Below, in pieces: positions 3,665 through 39,841 of a stretch of 44,590 bases of DNA. The stretch comes from Erysipelotrichaceae bacterium (GTDB taxonomy: Bacteria > Bacillota_I > Bacilli_A > Erysipelotrichales > Erysipelotrichaceae). The notes beneath the pieces are model-generated. The model saw only the letters and a list, made by a program, of their open reading frames with translations, was not told the origin of the DNA and ran no database searches. The position numbers and the translations under genes are program-made. The DNA lies in the NCBI GenBank assembly GCA_021209625.1, contig JAJOHZ010000004.1:1-44590 (forward strand), read 5' to 3'. Numbering within the stretch: the first letter of the stretch is position 1; the number at the start of each line of letters is the position of its first letter.

Positions 3665-3666
3665 AT

Positions 3667-3682
3667 GCGACAATATCCGACT
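3667..3682 (+). promoter_or_regulatory. GCGACAATATCCGACT motif, exact copy also at 8292; tandem 0A-box-like half-sites
   Basis: Exact 16-mer in both glycerol/DHA control regions; lies just upstream of candidate -35 TTGCAT(3698)/-10 TACAAT(3722). Confidence 0.6.
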
Positions 3683-3726
3683 GTACATTCAATTCTTTTG
3701 CATAAAGACTGCTTTTAGGACTACAA

Positions 3727-3740
3727 TGAAAGCGTATACA
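3727..3740 (+). promoter_or_regulatory. candidate CcpA cre site
   Basis: TGAAAGCGTATACA, 13/14 to TGWAARCGYTWNCW, overlaps end of -10. Confidence 0.6.
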
Positions 3741-3779: not shown

Positions 3780-4771
3780 ATGAAAAAGATTCTGAACAGA
3801 CCAGAAGACGTCGAGAAGAAATGATTAATGGCCTAGTTGCCACTCACGAAGATATCGTGCACCGCGTCAGTGACACTCGTGTTGTCGCTCGTAACTACGA
3901 AGGAAAAGGTAAAGTAGGTCTAGTTTCTGGGGGTGGAAGTGGACACGAACCATCTCATGCAGGTTTTGTAGGTAAAGGTATGTTAAGTGCTGCCGTCTGT
4001 GGTGATGTATTCACCTCTCCAACCGTTGATCAAGTGTATGAAGGAATTAAAGCAGCAGACAAAGGCGCTGGTGTATTCTTAGTTATTAAGAACTATACTG
4101 GTGACGTCATTAACTTCACCATGGCGAAAGAAATGGCTGAAGAAATGGACAACATTAAAGTAGACTTCGTTATCACTAATGATGACATCGCCGTTGAAGG
4201 TTCTACATGGACTGAAGGACGTCGTGGTGTTGCAGGTACAGTGCTTGTCCATAAGATTCTTGGCGCATTGGCAGAAAATGGGGCAAGCCTTGAAGAAGTC
4301 AAAGCTGAAAGCGAAAAACTCATTAAAGAAATGGCTACTCTTGGCTTAGCTTTAACTCCAGCGATTGTTCCTCAAGCAGGCAAACCTGGATTTGAATTAG
4401 GCGAAGATGAAATTGAATTTGGTCTTGGTATCCATGGTGAACCAGGCTATCGTCGTGCAAAACTACAACCTTCTAAAGTAATGGCAAAAGAATTCATTGA
4501 TAAGATTGTTGCAGAACTCAAACTTACTGCTGGTGAAAAAGTGGTTGCGTTTGTGAATGGTTTAGGTGGTACACCACTTATGGAACAATATGTCTTCATG
4601 AATGATGTATTGAATATCCTAAAAGAACACAAAATTGATGTGACTCGTAAACTCATTGGTAATAAAATGACTTCCATTGAAATGCAAGGCATCTCATTAA
4701 CCTTATTACGTGTTAAAGATCCTCGCTGGGTTGAATATCTTGATCAAGATGTGAAAGTGGCGGCTTGGTAA
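3780..4771 (+). CDS. dhaK: dihydroxyacetone kinase subunit DhaK (N-terminal frameshift)
   Basis: GLVSGGGSGHEPSHAGFVGKGMLSAAVCGDVFTSP; expected start MKKILNRPEDV at 3780 (SD AGGAGG) is -1 out of frame with MINGLVATHEDIV from 3821. Confidence 0.93.
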
Positions 4772-4772
4772 A

Positions 4773-5363
4773 ATGATGACTCCACTCGCATTTACCCAAT
4801 GGTTTGAAGTGTGGTCAAAAGACATTCAGACGCATAAAGAATACATGAGTGATCTTGATAATGCGATTGGTGATGGTGATCATGGATTCAATATGGCGAA
4901 GGGCGTCAATGCATATCAAGAAACCCGTCAAGCCAAACAAGAATTATCAATCAGTGAAGAGTGTAAACTCATTGGTATGACCTTACTTAGCAAAGTCGGA
5001 GGAGCTTCTGGACCACTGTATGGTTCAGCATTCCTTGCGATGGCCAAAGTGTTTGGTGATGCTCAAGAGATTTCTTATGACCAACTTGTCACTGCGCTTC
5101 AAGCTGGAGTAGATTCCATCATGATGCGTGGTAAAGCTATCCGACATGAGAAGACCATGATTGATGTATGGATGCCTGTCATCGAAGCCTTGAAACGAAA
5201 TGAACTCAATGAATCTCTTGTAGATCGTTACGTGAAAGACACAGCACCACTTAAAGCAACCAAAGGACGAGCAGCCTACTTAGGTGATCGCTCCATTGGT
5301 CACATTGATCCAGGCTCATTCTCTTCTGGATTACTCTTTAAAGCCTTACTCAAAGTCCTATAA
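4773..5363 (+). CDS. dhaL: dihydroxyacetone kinase subunit DhaL
   Basis: LDNAIGDGDHGFNMAKG and GGASGPLYGSAF motifs. Confidence 0.93.
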   Translation: MMTPLAFTQWFEVWSKDIQTHKEYMSDLDNAIGDGDHGFNMAKGVNAYQETRQAKQELSISEECKLIGMTLLSKVGGASGPLYGSAFLAMAKVFGDAQEISYDQLVTALQAGVDSIMMRGKAIRHEKTMIDVWMPVIEALKRNELNESLVDRYVKDTAPLKATKGRAAYLGDRSIGHIDPGSFSSGLLFKALLKVL

Positions 5364-5368
5364 TAAAC

Positions 5369-5397
5369 AAAAGCAATCATTCATCATGATTGCTTTT
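5369..5397. terminator. bidirectional terminator between dhaL and dhaM, overlapping dhaM 3' end
   Basis: AAAAGCAATCAttcatcaTGATTGCTTTT. Confidence 0.8.
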
Positions 5398-5772
5398 AAG
5401 TTTGCCTACTTCTCTTACTATCGCTTCGTGACTTGGATCAACTAAGGTTTGCACAGCAGCCACAAAGGCGCCTTCAACGATAGGTGCATCCAGATAGAAG
5501 CATTTTTCTTTTAAGGAATCATCAATCATGTCTAACACCATTTCAATGCTCATGATAGAGCTACCAATATCACCAAACAAATAGATTCGCTCACTTGCTT
5601 GATGCTCTTCGATCAATGATTGAATGAGTAATGGATCTGTTCCAATTTCTTTATCATGGGTTCCCCCTGCTGCTACCACGCTCACGTTAGTGCTTGGAAC
5701 CATTTGAGTCACCAAATCAACAATACCTTCACTGATTTTATAACTATGCGATACAACAATAAGTGTTATCAT
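5377..5772 (-). CDS. dhaM: PTS-dependent DHA kinase phosphotransferase subunit DhaM (EIIA-only, 131 aa)
   Basis: MITLIVVSHSYKISEGIVDLVTQM...AAGGTHDKEIGTDP. Confidence 0.9.
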   Translation of the reverse strand: MITLIVVSHSYKISEGIVDLVTQMVPSTNVSVVAAGGTHDKEIGTDPLLIQSLIEEHQASERIYLFGDIGSSIMSIEMVLDMIDDSLKEKCFYLDAPIVEGAFVAAVQTLVDPSHEAIVREVGKLKSNHDE

Positions 5773-5851: not shown

Positions 5852-7363
<1,512 letters not shown>

Positions 7364-7403: not shown

Positions 7404-7745
7404 TTAGAATAAATAGAATGATAAGAATAATCCGCCTAATACGCCACCAACTAAAGCAGCAACTAAATTAGGAACAGCTTTAGAGAAGCTTCCACCACGA
7501 ACAACAGAAGCAACAAGAAGACCAGATGCAGCTGCAAACGCCATATCGACCCATGCACCATCTGCAGATTGAGTAATCATACCAGTACCATGGTTAAGAG
7601 CCCAAGTAGTACCAACGATGAACGCAGCAGCCATCCAACCACCAAACGTTCCAAAATTATCAACTAGTTTTCCCCAAAGTAAACGGATTAAGAATGGGAA
7701 GATTGCTGCGCCAACTACGGTCGCAATTGCTTGTTGAATTGTCAT
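7404..7745 (-). CDS. Lin0368-like putative glycerol transporter subunit
   Basis: Small membrane protein paired with a similar one upstream of glpK; layout resembles Listeria lin0368-type genes. Confidence 0.65.
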   Translation of the reverse strand: MTIQQAIATVVGAAIFPFLIRLLWGKLVDNFGTFGGWMAAAFIVGTTWALNHGTGMITQSADGAWVDMAFAAASGLLVASVVRGGSFSKAVPNLVAALVGGVLGGLFLSFYLF

Positions 7746-7750
7746 AATTC

Positions 7751-8110
7751 TTAGCCCTCCATGCTTTCTTCGACTTTAGCGGCAAGGAATCCCCCGATAA
7801 TGCCTCCTAAAATCACTAAACCTAATGTTGGTAATGTAGCGATAAGTGGATCAACTGAACCTGCACCGAATACATCGCGCATAACCCCAGCAACACCAAT
7901 ACCAGCTGCCATATCAACGAAACCTGAATCTGATTCGTGTGGAATCAATCCAACGAAATGGTTTAAGAACCACATTGGACCGATGATTGCAAATGCTGCA
8001 AACCATCCACCGATAATTCCAAACGACTCTAAAGACGCCATTGGACCCCATACAGACATAACGAACATACCTGCGATGGCGTATCCTAGAACACTTCTAA
8101 GAAACTTCAT
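7751..8110 (-). CDS. second Lin0368-like putative glycerol transporter subunit
   Basis: MKFLRSVLGYAIAGMFVMSVWGP...; shares GGWFAAFxIxGxxWxLNH/DMA pattern with the adjacent gene; SD AAGAGG upstream of 8110. Confidence 0.65.
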   Translation of the reverse strand: MKFLRSVLGYAIAGMFVMSVWGPMASLESFGIIGGWFAAFAIIGPMWFLNHFVGLIPHESDSGFVDMAAGIGVAGVMRDVFGAGSVDPLIATLPTLGLVILGGIIGGFLAAKVEESMEG

Positions 8111-8260
8111 AATAACCTCTTTCCTTTCCATAGCTTTCGCTATCTATGTTGACTTGTTGTAAGAGCTGCACAATGGATGAGGTTGTGAAACTCAAACTTC
8201 AAAGTTCAATCCTTGTGAATATTTTGGGTATCTAACATGTCCCCACGTTTAATTTTAAAT

Positions 8261-8274
8261 TAAAAGCGCTTACA
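8261..8274 (-). promoter_or_regulatory. candidate cre site upstream of glycerol transporter-glpK
   Basis: Minus strand TGTAAGCGCTTTTA, 13/14 to consensus. Confidence 0.6.
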
Positions 8275-8291: not shown

Positions 8292-8350
8292 GCGACAATA
8301 TCCGACTAGCTGTGAAAGATTGATGAAACTCAGCTAAAGGATACTGTCGC
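8292..8350. promoter_or_regulatory. GCGACAATATCCGACT motif plus inverted partial copy forming a long imperfect palindrome
   Basis: GCGACAATATCC(gac)TAGCTG...CAGCTA(aa)GGATACTGTCGC; first 16 nt identical to 3667-3682. Confidence 0.6.
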
Positions 8351-8375: not shown

Positions 8376-9176
8376 CTAGGAGTGAGAACGATACATGTCT
8401 TCTTTTATTTTTTCTAATATCATACCAATGTACTCAGAATTGGATGGTTTACGGTGTGGATCCTTGTAATTCATGGATGTCAAGAACGCTGTTAAACGAG
8501 CATTATTTTGCTCATACGCCAGTGTTAAACTATGACGCATGGCTTTATCCACATTTCCACTGCTTGTTTTGCATACTTCTGCCACATAAGGATAAATTGA
8601 TTTTGTGATTGAAAATACTTCAATGGACTCATTGAGAATATGCTCTATAGCAAGTCTAAAATACTGATATCCAAAGGTGTGAGATGGTAACCCACTGTCC
8701 ATTAAATGCTTACTAACATGGGTTTGAAGGGTCGGATGTTGATTGACTTCATTATCTCGCTCGAAAGTTAATATACGTAAGCGCTCAATTAAGATTTGGG
8801 AAGTAAATGGTTTGAATAACACAAATTTAGCTCCCCAATTCAAAGCTTGTTCAATGACATTTTCATCTTGAATTTCGGATAAAACGATCACTTTGGTGTT
8901 GTTTAATAGTTTGTCAAAATAGGCTTGTTTAAGAAATCCTAATCCATCACATTTTGGCATAAATAAATCTAATAAGATGATATCAACGTGTTGACGTTTA
9001 AGAATGGCTAATGCTTCATAACCATCTTTTGCTTTTGCTGTAACTTTAAAGTCTGCTACAGAATCAAGCATTTCACTTAATTTCTTCAAACCAAAATGAC
9101 TATCATCTACCACCATGACGTGCTTGATTTCTTTACCCATCGCAACGACTTCTTTTGAACGAGCTTGTACTGACAT
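8376..9176 (-). CDS. Spo0A-like response regulator (CheY receiver + Spo0A C-terminal DNA-binding domain)
   Basis: Receiver VMVVDDSHFG...ILLDLFMPKCDG...VIVLSE...FKPF; C-terminus GLPSHTFGYQYFRLAIEHIL...KSIYPYVAEV...VDKAMRHSLTLAYEQ...KPSNSEYIGMILEK. Confidence 0.85.
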   Translation of the reverse strand: MSVQARSKEVVAMGKEIKHVMVVDDSHFGLKKLSEMLDSVADFKVTAKAKDGYEALAILKRQHVDIILLDLFMPKCDGLGFLKQAYFDKLLNNTKVIVLSEIQDENVIEQALNWGAKFVLFKPFTSQILIERLRILTFERDNEVNQHPTLQTHVSKHLMDSGLPSHTFGYQYFRLAIEHILNESIEVFSITKSIYPYVAEVCKTSSGNVDKAMRHSLTLAYEQNNARLTAFLTSMNYKDPHRKPSNSEYIGMILEKIKEDMYRSHS

Positions 9177-9547
9177 TAATGAACACGCTCCATACTTCTT
9201 GAGGCAATGATATCCACATCAAGTCCACATACATTCTTAATAATCACTTCATTCATAGCAACAGGGGCAACCACTTCAACGTGTGCCAATGCTTTCATGA
9301 CTTCAAACATCTTCCCTTTAGGAATATCTGAAGAGGTAATCACAGGTAAGCGATCATACAATGCTCCCGAGATTTTCACAGTACTTGTTAACATGCGTGT
9401 AGGATTAGTCAATTCTTTACGAGCATAGACATCTCCACGATTACAAGAATTTCCTGTGACATTCAGAACTTGTCCTGCATCATCTAAATCAACTTCAAGA
9501 TGACAACTCATTGGACATACAATACATATCATTTCATGTTTCTTCAT
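9176..9547 (-). CDS. DUF1667 domain protein (cysteine-motif partner of flavoprotein oxidoreductase)
   Basis: MKKHEMICIVCPMSCHLEVDLDD...GNSCNRGDVYARKELTNPTRMLTSTVKI; ATGA overlap with upstream gene. Confidence 0.85.
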   Translation of the reverse strand: MKKHEMICIVCPMSCHLEVDLDDAGQVLNVTGNSCNRGDVYARKELTNPTRMLTSTVKISGALYDRLPVITSSDIPKGKMFEVMKALAHVEVVAPVAMNEVIIKNVCGLDVDIIASRSMERVH

Positions 9548-10803
9548 GCGACGTCCTCCACAACTTCGATACTTAAGGATTGTTGACATAAAGCCACATC
9601 AGAGGCTTTAAGGATCACTTTCTCCATTTCAGCTGGAGCTAAGTGTTTTTTCTTAATCACACGTAAAACTTCATCATCTTTTTTAATGACTAGTTCCACA
9701 TTCTTATATTGCTTGCGCACTCTAAACATTAATTCAATCGTTTTATCTAAGTTAACAGGATGAATCATTTGAGGAACAATGTATCCAATCCCTTCTTTAG
9801 CAACTGTATGAATCACATTTCCTGTGTTGAGTTGATCATTAATGTATTTAGCTGCTGCAATTCCTGTCTTACGACCTTCTTCGGCCACAAAATCCACTAA
9901 ATCATGAACATGAAGAACATTACCACAAGCAAACACACCTTCAAGTGATGTTTGATAGGATTCATCCACTTTAGGACCACGTGTTTTTGGATCCATTTCA
10001 ATGTTGGCTTCTTCACTGAGTGCATTTTCAGGAATGAGACCAATCGAGAATAACACGGTATCCACATCAAAGGTTTTTTCCGTACCAACGATCGGTTGCA
10101 TTCTATCATCAACTTGCGCAATGGTAACCCCACTCACTCGATCCAATCCATCAATCTTAGTAATGGTATGGCTTAAGAAAAGTGGAATATCAAAATCTTC
10201 AAGACATTGTTTGATGTTACGAGGTAGTCCATTTGAATATGGCATGATTTCTGCCACACCCTTCACTTCAGCTCCTTCAAGGGTTAAGCGACGAGCCATG
10301 ATTAATCCAATGTCACCACTACCTAGAATGAAGATTTTCTTCCCTACCATGAACCCTTCCATGTTAAGGTAGCGTTGTGCAGTCCCTGCACTCCAAACAC
10401 CAGATGGGCGATAACCTGGAACAGCGATTGCTCCACGGGTACGTTCACGACAACCCATAGCTAAAATGATTGCCCCAGCTTTAATTAAGACATATCCTTC
10501 ATCTGGACTGACGTATTCAATGGTTTTATTGTCATTCATGTGAATGACCATAGCATTTAATTTATAAGTAATGTATTTTTGATGAACTAAGTTGACAAAA
10601 CGTTCTGCAAATCCTGGACCAGATAGTTCTTCTTTAAAAGTATGAACACCAAATCCATTATGAATGCATTGTTGGAGGATTCCTCCTAGTTCTTTATCTC
10701 TTTCAAGGATTAAAATGTCTCTAACCCCATTATCATAAGCACTAACGGCAGCAGCTAGTCCTGCACTTCCACCGCCAATGATGACTAAATCAAAGTGTTT
10801 CAT
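9544..10803 (-). CDS. NAD(P)/FAD-dependent oxidoreductase
   Basis: DLVIIGGGSAGLAAAVSAYDNG...LERDKELGGILQQCIHNGFG. Confidence 0.88.
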   Translation of the reverse strand: MKHFDLVIIGGGSAGLAAAVSAYDNGVRDILILERDKELGGILQQCIHNGFGVHTFKEELSGPGFAERFVNLVHQKYITYKLNAMVIHMNDNKTIEYVSPDEGYVLIKAGAIILAMGCRERTRGAIAVPGYRPSGVWSAGTAQRYLNMEGFMVGKKIFILGSGDIGLIMARRLTLEGAEVKGVAEIMPYSNGLPRNIKQCLEDFDIPLFLSHTITKIDGLDRVSGVTIAQVDDRMQPIVGTEKTFDVDTVLFSIGLIPENALSEEANIEMDPKTRGPKVDESYQTSLEGVFACGNVLHVHDLVDFVAEEGRKTGIAAAKYINDQLNTGNVIHTVAKEGIGYIVPQMIHPVNLDKTIELMFRVRKQYKNVELVIKKDDEVLRVIKKKHLAPAEMEKVILKASDVALCQQSLSIEVVEDVA

Positions 10804-12240
10804 GCAAGGTTCTCCTTTGTTTCTCCAACAAGTATCGTAGATTCATCCGAATCAAGTAAAACCTGGGTCGGTTTAATCTTGAGTTCGCGTGCTAAAATTG
10901 CAATGACACGTGGTTCACAGAAACCACCTTGGCATCGACCTGCACCTGCTCTTACACGACGTTTAACTGCTTTAACAGTTCGTGCACCCGCATTACGATG
11001 GATCACATCCACAATTTCACCTTCACTGACAAGTTCACAACGACAAATCATTTGACCAAACTTCGCATCTTTTTCATACATGTTTTGTTTTTCTTCAACA
11101 CTCATGCGGTTAAGAATAATCCAAGGACGACGAGGTGTTCTTGGTTCACTCTTTGGTTTAAGAGGAATCAACTCTGAAAGAATATTGGTCACATACTCAG
11201 CAATCGCTGGAGCAGAGGCAAGTCCTGGAGAATCAACACCAATTAAGTTAATGAAGTTTTTAACATCATTTGCTTCTTCAATCACAAAATCATAATCCAA
11301 ATGTGATGGACGAAGTCCTACATAAGTACGAATGATCGTGTGCATAGGAATATTTTTTAACTGTTTTAGCAACTTGCTCTTTCACATAAGCCAATGCATC
11401 CGCTGTGTTGTCTTTACCTTCTTTATCAGAAATGATGTCAGAGTTAGGACCAATTAAAATATTGTCATGGATGGTAGGAACAACTAAAACTCCTTTTCCT
11501 TTTTCAGATGGAAGTGGATAAATGGTTCTTGATACCACTGGTTTCACTGCACGGTCCAGTACATAGTATTCACCACGACGTGGTGTAATCTTGTAATGAG
11601 TTTGCTTAGACACCATGGCATAAATCTCATCAGAATAAACCCCTGCCGCATTAATGATGACTTTGGTTTGGAAGACAGCTTTTGGAGTTGTCACATCAAA
11701 ATAACCATCCTTACGATCAATATTAACTACTTTATGATTGAGGAATAGATGTAATCCATGATTAATGGCATCTTCAACAGCAGCAATGGTCACTTCCCAA
11801 GGAGAAACAATCCCTGTAGATGGTAAATCCAATGCTTCTACAACGGCATCACTCAAATTAGGCTCTAATGCAATAGCTTCCTCACGATTGATAAGTCGAC
11901 TTGGAACACCTCTTTCTTGCGCTTGATCATATAACTCTTTAAGTTTACTGCGCTCTTCATCATTCACGGCGACAACAAAAGCACCATTACGGATAAAGTC
12001 CACTTTCAATTCTTCACATAATCCTTCCCACAACTCATTACCGCGAACATTAAGTTTCGCTTTAAGTGTGCCTGTTTTTGGATCATGTCCAGAGTGGATA
12101 ATGGCACTGTTAGCAGCAGTGGCTTCATTAGCTACATCATTATCTTTTTCTAGCAACGCAACCTTAAGATCAAACTTAGATAAGCGTTGTGCTAATAGTC
12201 CACCATTAATCCCTGCGCCGATAATCACTACATCATACAT
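10800..12240 (-). CDS. GlpA-like FAD-dependent oxidoreductase with C-terminal BFD-like [2Fe-2S] domain (frameshifted)
   Basis: ORF 11290..12240 (DVVIIGAGINGGLLAQRLSKFD) continues in another frame in ORF 10800..11372 (NIPMHTIIRTYVGLRPS...MICRCELVSEGEIVD...GAGRCQGGFC); break at an A6 run. Confidence 0.85.
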
Positions 12241-12263
12241 GCGTGGTCCTCCTTAAATAAAAA

Positions 12264-12301
12264 ACACCAAAATAGAATCTGTGAAATTGCTACTCTGGTG
12301 T
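12264..12301 (-). terminator. leader terminator / GlpP antitermination candidate upstream of GlpA-like gene
   Basis: Minus strand ACACCA...TGGTGTTTTTT immediately before the SD, preceded by CACAAGAGA. Confidence 0.5.
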
Positions 12302-12376
12302 CTCTTGTGTGTCTATTAACTTGTAACTACATTATAACGTATGACATATGTTCATGCAATGTCTTTTTTTCACATA

Positions 12377-12390
12377 TTTAAGCGTTTACA
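12377..12390 (-). promoter_or_regulatory. candidate cre site
   Basis: Minus strand TGTAAACGCTTAAA, 13/14. Confidence 0.5.
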
Positions 12391-12433
12391 TCGTCACATT
12401 TGTCACAAATAAAGACATTTTGTGACAAATTAT

Positions 12434-13034
12434 CTATTCGTGCATGGATTCGCATAAACACAAATCACTGACCGTAAATGCCATGCATCCTGCTTCAAGT
12501 CCTTGTAGTATGTCTTCTTTTGTTTTTAACAATCCCCCACCAATGAGTGGCATACTAATCTTAGATTTGATGTAAGGAATAATCTTGTAGGCAATGGCAG
12601 GCATCACTTCCACAATATCAGGTTGTGATTTTTGCAGTGTTTCTATGCCTCGCTCAATGGATTTACTGTCGATTAAAAACATGCGTTGAATCGCGATTTT
12701 TTTATTCTTCTTTGTGGTTTCAATGATTCGAGTCTTACTTGAAATCACTCCATCGGCTCTTAAACGCTGACATAAAAACTCAGCACCATGTTCATCACTG
12801 GAGATCCCATGTACCATATCAATATGTACCAATGCTAACTTATTATTATCGTGCAGTGTTTTAATCATATGTTCAAGCAATGAAATATGAATGTCTTGAA
12901 GAATACACACGATTAAATCTGACTCAATGAATTTCTCAAGTCGTTTCATGCTAGGGACAACAGGAACACAGATTTGTTTTTTTTAAGATGTCGATCATAG
13001 GTTGAATCTCTTTCATGTTGTCAACATTATACAT
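12434..13034 (-). CDS. glpP: glycerol uptake operon antiterminator GlpP (frameshifted near N-terminus)
   Basis: LALVHIDMVHGISSDEHGAEFLCQRLRADGVISSK...AIQRMFLIDS...IVEVMPAI...PLIGGGLLKTKED; removing one A from an A8 run extends to MYNVDNMKEIQPMIDILKKQICVPVVPSMKRLEKF. Confidence 0.85.
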
Positions 13035-13050: not shown

Positions 13051-14141
13051 TTAACGTCGATTTGCTAAAGCAGGCAAAATCATCGTGGTGGTAACATCCT
13101 TTGCAATCGCTGGTGCACTTGCAATGCCTGGAGATTCTATGCCTGCTAACGTAAAGAAGTTAGGAACATGAGGATGTTCTTGAATAATGAAATCATCTTG
13201 ATTGACTCGAGGTCTGAAACCAACAAAGCGTTCCACTTCTTTTTCATAAGGAATATTAGAAAGCAGATGATTCATTTTCACTTTTCATGTCTTCGATTGC
13301 TTCATCTTGAATGGGTTGAGGAATAAACGACTCAACATCCACCGCATTTGGACCAACTAAGCTTCTTCCACTGATGGTAGGTACATATAAAACACCTTTG
13401 CCTAAAGGAGACGGAACTGGATATATGATGCGTGAAGAAACTAATGGAAGATCTTCAGATAGGACAAGGTATTCTCCTTTTCGGTATTCAAGATTAAAGG
13501 ATGGTTCACCTAACAATGCTTCAATCTTATCCGCATACAACCCTGCACAATTAACCACCACTTTAGTTTGGTAAATACCACGATTGGTAGCAACTTCAAA
13601 ATGATCTCCTCTTGATTGAATAGAAACAATGCTTTCTTCAAAATGGGCCATACCCCCTTGTTCTACCCCTTTATTAACTGCTTGTGAAGCTAAGTGGGTT
13701 GGATCCACAATGGCTGTGGTTGGCATGTCCAATACTGCAATCACATTAGGATTAAGGTTTGGCTCTAACATCATAGCTTCATGCACACTGTAACGAACAA
13801 CTGGTATCGATCGCTCTTTAGACTCGTTGTTCTAAAACATCCAAATGCTTACATTCTTCTTCATTTTTTGCTACCACAAAAGCCCCTATACGTTTGAATG
13901 GTGTTTCTAATTCTTTCGCATAGTCTTCATACATGGCTTGTCCCATAAGATTATACTTAGCTTTAAGGGTATTAGAGAGTGGATCGACCCCGCTATGGAC
14001 TATGGCACTATTGTGCCCACTGACTTCTAAACCAGGCTTATGATTCTTCTCAAATAGATGGACGTTTCTACTCTGTTTAGTACATTCATAAAAAACAGTG
14101 CTGCCAATGATACCAGCACCGATCACGATAATATCGATCAT
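13051..14141 (-). CDS. GlpO/GlpA-like FAD-dependent oxidoreductase, no BFD-like tail (two frameshifts)
   Basis: ORFs 13818..14258, 13256..13786 and 13051..13281 are consecutive pieces: MIDIIVIGAGIIGSTVFYE..., MLEPNLNPNVIAVLDMPTT..., YEKEVERFVGFRPRVNQDDFIIQ... Confidence 0.85.
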
Positions 14142-39710: not shown

Positions 39711-39841
39711 ACCTCCTTAATGTTATTGTATCATAGCCTAAGTCGTCTCACATGTTAGTGTGCACCTAGACTCGAATATTATCATCTTAAAATGATTCAA
39801 TCTTATCCTTTAGAAAATGGTAAAATAACACTGAGGTTATT

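Follow-up and report, generated by a model that had tools for sequence, protein, structure and literature searches.

The glpFK and glpD genes of Bacillus subtilis are controlled by GlpP antitermination and by CcpA. In Bacillus and Clostridium, Spo0A joins a receiver to a Spo0A_C domain and acts at the 0A box (TGTCGAA), of which it reportedly contacts G2, C4 and G5 (PMC3485338), and positively regulated genes of the Spo0A type are reported to carry their sites upstream of the −35 region (PMC4168254). According to part of one account of Clostridium pasteurianum (PMC4690370), Spo0A is a global sporulation regulator whose status alters growth on glycerol, and the putative 0A boxes described there belong to the sol locus rather than to genes of glycerol metabolism. 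Here we analyse a 44,590-nt stretch of DNA from an Erysipelotrichaceae bacterium (the window), for which we determined computationally the sites and their conservation, what the regulator is and how strictly the sites go with it, its place in the operon, the cre sites and the contrast between promoters. Like the B. subtilis glp genes, its glycerol/DHA locus has a glpP-like gene, a terminator-like leader before glpO and cre-like sites; unlike them, the transporter–glpK and dhaK promoters appear to add Spo0A-type boxes. It shares with the Bacillus/Clostridium Spo0A system a receiver–Spo0A_C protein, the box core and tandem boxes ahead of promoters with a weak −35, but the regulator here is encoded in a glycerol operon and apparently serves just two glycerol/DHA promoters; its recognition helix has diverged, its Spo0A score is below the cutoff, and the genomes that encode it have no other Spo0A_C protein.

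The first-pass annotation had reported an exact 16-mer common to two glycerol/DHA control regions, read it as two CGAC half-sites 10 bp apart, and placed a Spo0A-like gene between the two copies. The 16-mer, GCGACAATATCCGACT, is indeed present on the forward strand at 3667–3682 and at 8292–8307, and its CGAC cores are 10 bp apart, in TGCGACA (3666–3672) and TCCGACT (3676–3682). The gene had been misplaced: it lies just outside the pair, adjoining the second site, 68 bp beyond it and immediately upstream of the transporter operon (Table 1). The motif points with transcription at dhaK and against it at the transporter operon, which is transcribed on the reverse strand. Allowing up to three mismatches, the window holds three matches to the 16-mer against 0.18 expected from dinucleotide shuffles; allowing up to two, the 1.12-Mb assembly holds no third copy. 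This assembly is 60% complete and has several broken frames, and the sites were confirmed in independent genomes. Frames are broken in dhaK (3780–3830), glpO (11290–11372) and a second glpO-like gene (13786–13818), likely through assembly errors, because dhaK and glpO are intact in relatives. A transporter role for gtA and gtB is suggested by their position next to glpK.

Table 1. Coordinates of the glycerol/DHA locus in the window
Feature	Position	Strand	Details
Tandem 0A-like half-sites upstream of dhaK	3666..3682	+	10-bp period; from sequence and conservation
Inferred dhaK promoter	3698..3727	+	Weak −35 TTGCAT 3698–3703, 18-bp spacer, −10 TACAAT 3722–3727
Cre-like (CcpA) site over dhaK −10/start region	3727..3740	+	TGAAAGCGTATACA; conserved in relatives
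dhaK	3780..4771	+	TIGR02363; frame broken near start here, intact in relatives
dhaL	4773..5363	+	TIGR02365
dhaM, PTS-type phosphoryl donor	5377..5772	-	TIGR02364
glpK, glycerol kinase	5852..7348	-	FGGY family
gtB, putative glycerol transporter subunit	7404..7745	-	DUF6905
gtA, putative glycerol transporter subunit	7751..8110	-	DUF6905; start picked by alignment
gtA promoter core	8252..8274	-	Cre-like TGTAAGCGCTTTTA 8274–8261; inferred −10 TAAAAT 8257–8252
Tandem 0A-like half-sites upstream of gtA	8292..8308	-	AGTCGGATATTGTCGC on the reverse strand
Distal inverted partial motif copy	8339..8350	-	GCGACAGTATCC
Regulator (receiver + Spo0A_C)	8376..9176	-	Proposed activator of both operons
glpO–FAD oxidoreductase–DUF1667 operon, regulator last	9176..12240	-	glpO frame broken here
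glpO upstream region	12241..12400	-	Cre-like site and GlpP-type terminator/antiterminator-like leader

The product of 8376–9176 matches the Pfam receiver (PF00072) and Spo0A_C (PF08769) models above cutoff, and the solved structures closest to it are those of Spo0A domains (1lq1, 1fc3). The receiver pocket (D24, D25, D70, S100 and K122) is invariant in the alignment, as in a receiver able to accept a phosphoryl group; no partner kinase is encoded near the regulator. Against the Spo0A equivalog model TIGR02875 the protein scores 146.4 bits, below the curated cutoff of 200 bits. Its orthologs, at 45–79% identity, occur in the genus of the window and in a second genus of the family (the named records are metagenome-assembled genomes labelled Erysipelothrix sp., Erysipelotrichaceae or Bacillota/Firmicutes), and they form a supported clade separate from the ordinary Spo0A of the same family, with the recognition helix NVDKAMRH in place of the RVERAIRH of Spo0A. 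The proteins of L075–L077, 31–33% identical and with an ordinary Spo0A helix, were rejected as clade members. In all loci examined the regulator is the last gene after glpO, the FAD oxidoreductase and DUF1667, and in nine regulator-bearing genomes it is the only Spo0A_C protein. SpoIIIAE, a sporulation marker, was found in none of the regulator carriers; it is uninformative within the family, because Spo0A-bearing members also gave no match. The protein is very probably a regulator of the Spo0A family that serves glycerol/DHA operons specifically, in bacteria that lack an ordinary Spo0A.

On the other strand, the bases of the 0A box that Spo0A is reported to contact are the C, G and C within CGAC, and every half-site of the tandem pairs retains them. 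The half-sites of the window all keep CG-C and depart from TTCGACA only at non-contacted positions, which makes this degenerate-looking motif a credible 0A variant. Three congeners keep the 16-mer at both promoters with at most one mismatch, amid intergenic sequence that varies. Further out, the full Spo0A consensus appears: the sites are TTCGACAATATTCGACC (dhaK) and AACGACAATATTCGACT (gtA) in L067, and TTCGACAATTTTCGACA (dhaK) and CTCGACAAAATTCGACT (gtA) in G128, whose dhaK site, read from the opposite strand, consists of two perfect boxes (TGTCGAAAATTGTCGAA); a second genus, g8, has the tandem GTCGAAAATTGTCG at dhaK. All of these lie outside the closest relatives of the window. A half-site pair is present in 22 of the 22 regulator-positive promoters (12 of dhaK and 10 of the glycerol transporter), or 21 of 21 when the dhaK promoter of G143, whose genome, 65% complete and from the same genus, did not yield the regulator, is set aside; in dinucleotide shuffles the pair arises at a frequency of at most 0.006 per promoter. 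Regulator-negative promoters (three of dhaK and four of gtA) have no pair in a small set of seven from five genomes. Besides the contacted core, the sites have the tandem period of about 10 bp expected of 0A boxes in activated promoters, exact in 18 of the 22; the other four, the gtA promoters of g8, carry an inverted TTCGACA-N16-TGTCGAA.

Could the motif be the operator of some other regulator, its linkage to the Spo0A-like gene coincidental? The divergence of the recognition helix leaves room for this reading, and for the same reason recognition of the box by this protein is something that we infer. A different DNA-binding protein is nevertheless hard to reconcile with sites that, in relatives, match the canonical 0A box at every position and keep the 10-bp tandem spacing, and with a presence that tracks the regulator so strictly, even in G128 and g8, where separate contigs carry the regulator gene and dhaK with its pair. 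We regard this alternative as very improbable. The Spo0A-type reading of the sites proposed by the first-pass annotation is thus supported by the canonical boxes and the regulator association, and the loss of the motif from relatives that keep gene and operons, which it had named as a refutation, was not seen in any of the 22 regulator-positive promoters.

The second copy of the motif also forms an arm of an imperfect inverted repeat of 59 bp (8292–8350; GCGACAATATCC...GGATACTGTCGC), which folds far better than shuffled sequence (z = −4.7) and whose inner stem positions change in step among aligned relatives. The element upstream of gtA might on these grounds be a structured RNA, such as a riboswitch, a terminator or a GlpP target, in which the motif would supply one strand of the stem. 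The repeat, however, has no Rfam match and lies upstream of the inferred gtA promoter, the dhaK site has no hairpin (z = −0.7), and the distal arm, which the window shares with its three closest relatives, is absent from L067 and L068, which keep the motif. With neither an Rfam match nor a counterpart at dhaK, an RNA element was rejected as the main explanation, and we give it almost no weight. The distal copy at 8339–8350 could promote looping or serve as an additional weak site.

We next consider how the Spo0A-type sites are placed relative to the promoters. They lie upstream of the −35 region, with a gap to the inferred −10 of 38–40 bp at dhaK in the group of the window, 45–46 bp at dhaK in g8, and about 33–35 bp at gtA in clear cases; both orientation and −10 distance differ between the dhaK and gtA promoters. 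The dhaK −10 is kept as TACAAT or TATAAT in all aligned relatives, and the gtA promoter of the window has no recognisable −35. A perfect TTGACA −35, with a 17-bp spacer, is present in four of four regulator-negative gtA promoters versus none of the ten regulator-positive ones, a contrast that favours activation standing in for the −35 contact; at dhaK it is not seen, the regulator-negative promoters there also having a weak −35. The earlier proposal of an activator gains support from this comparison of gtA promoters. Spo0A is known as both activator and repressor, and the regulator might instead bind and repress, or modulate transcription cooperatively with CcpA. Repression is possible but less likely given the site position, which is that reported for positively regulated Spo0A-type genes (PMC4168254), and it also fits poorly with regulator-positive gtA promoters that are without the −35 of their regulator-negative counterparts; overall we consider this reading unlikely.

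Activation would operate alongside catabolite control. Binding sites for CcpA follow the cre consensus TGWAANCGNTNWCA. The cre-like site at dhaK matches it in full by eye and that at gtA nearly so, and both are conserved; their location on or next to the −10 makes CcpA repression of both operons likely. A further cre-like site precedes the glpO operon, upstream of GlpP-type leader elements comprising TACAAGTTAAT and then a terminator-like element (AGAGACACC...GGTGTTTTT) that resembles GlpP targets and is kept across both genera. Before this operon lies an open reading frame (12434–12949) that we take to be a glpP-like gene, for which a profile-model search gave no match. The glpO promoters have no half-site pair in any of 11 genomes, and autoregulation through them was rejected on that basis.

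We hold with considerable confidence, from the sequence evidence, that the 16-mer represents tandem Spo0A-type boxes through which the regulator would bind and activate dhaKL and transporter–glpK at promoters without a good −35, with CcpA repressing and a GlpP-type leader tuning the regulator; binding, phosphorylation, activation and the GlpP step are what we infer. In the proposed mechanism, the regulator, probably as a phosphorylated dimer, would place one DNA-binding domain on each half-site, on the same helix face, about 45–67 bp upstream of the dhaKL and transporter–glpK start sites, and would recruit sigma-A RNA polymerase to these promoters. CcpA would repress both from the cre sites, which overlap or adjoin the −10. 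Because the regulator ends the glpO operon with its GlpP-type leader, rising glycerol-3-phosphate would yield more regulator and, in turn, more uptake and phosphorylation of glycerol/DHA.

The Spo0A/0A-box architecture is known; the comparisons support, as the new element, a family member apparently dedicated to glycerol/DHA use. Our search of the open-access literature, with subscription papers outside its scope, found no description of such a regulator. If the proposal is correct, lineages with no ordinary Spo0A retain the Spo0A output module in the form of a small switch that responds to carbon source. The regulator–operator set, with its natural positive and negative promoters, would lend itself to the study of −35 substitution by Spo0A-type activators and of how recognition helix and box evolve. 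More tentatively, the protein may be Spo0A itself in a new role: once sporulation was lost, the last member of its family in these Erysipelotrichaceae would have entered the glpO operon and come to act solely as a GlpP-induced activator of glycerol and DHA genes at about two promoters, while the ancestral 0A box was kept. Alternatively, the clade may descend from an old paralog.

A narrow target set is what genome-wide searches returned. In seven genomes, exact matches to NCGACAATATNCGAC are confined to these promoters and a second, end-of-contig copy of dhaK in G080, and the exact inverted site of g8 occurs once per genome, upstream of gtA, in three genomes; pattern search found no further exact sites elsewhere in the genomes. 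The second dhaK promoter copy of G080 (L047, contig C49) resembles those of the window and G143 and not the G080 promoter itself, which suggests that G080 includes a stray contig.

Two minor observations concern other sequences. The gtA leader (8110–8245, reverse strand) contains a strongly conserved GGATTGAAC block and, in most relatives, a GCGAAAGC hairpin close to the ribosome-binding site; it has no Rfam match, and post-transcriptional control is possible. A weak, partly conserved 0A-like pair precedes a DJ-1/PfpI-like gene (about 39755–39785 in the window; L139–L142), reading GACAATATTCAACT in G080 and GACAAAATTCGACG in G128, and may mark a third target.
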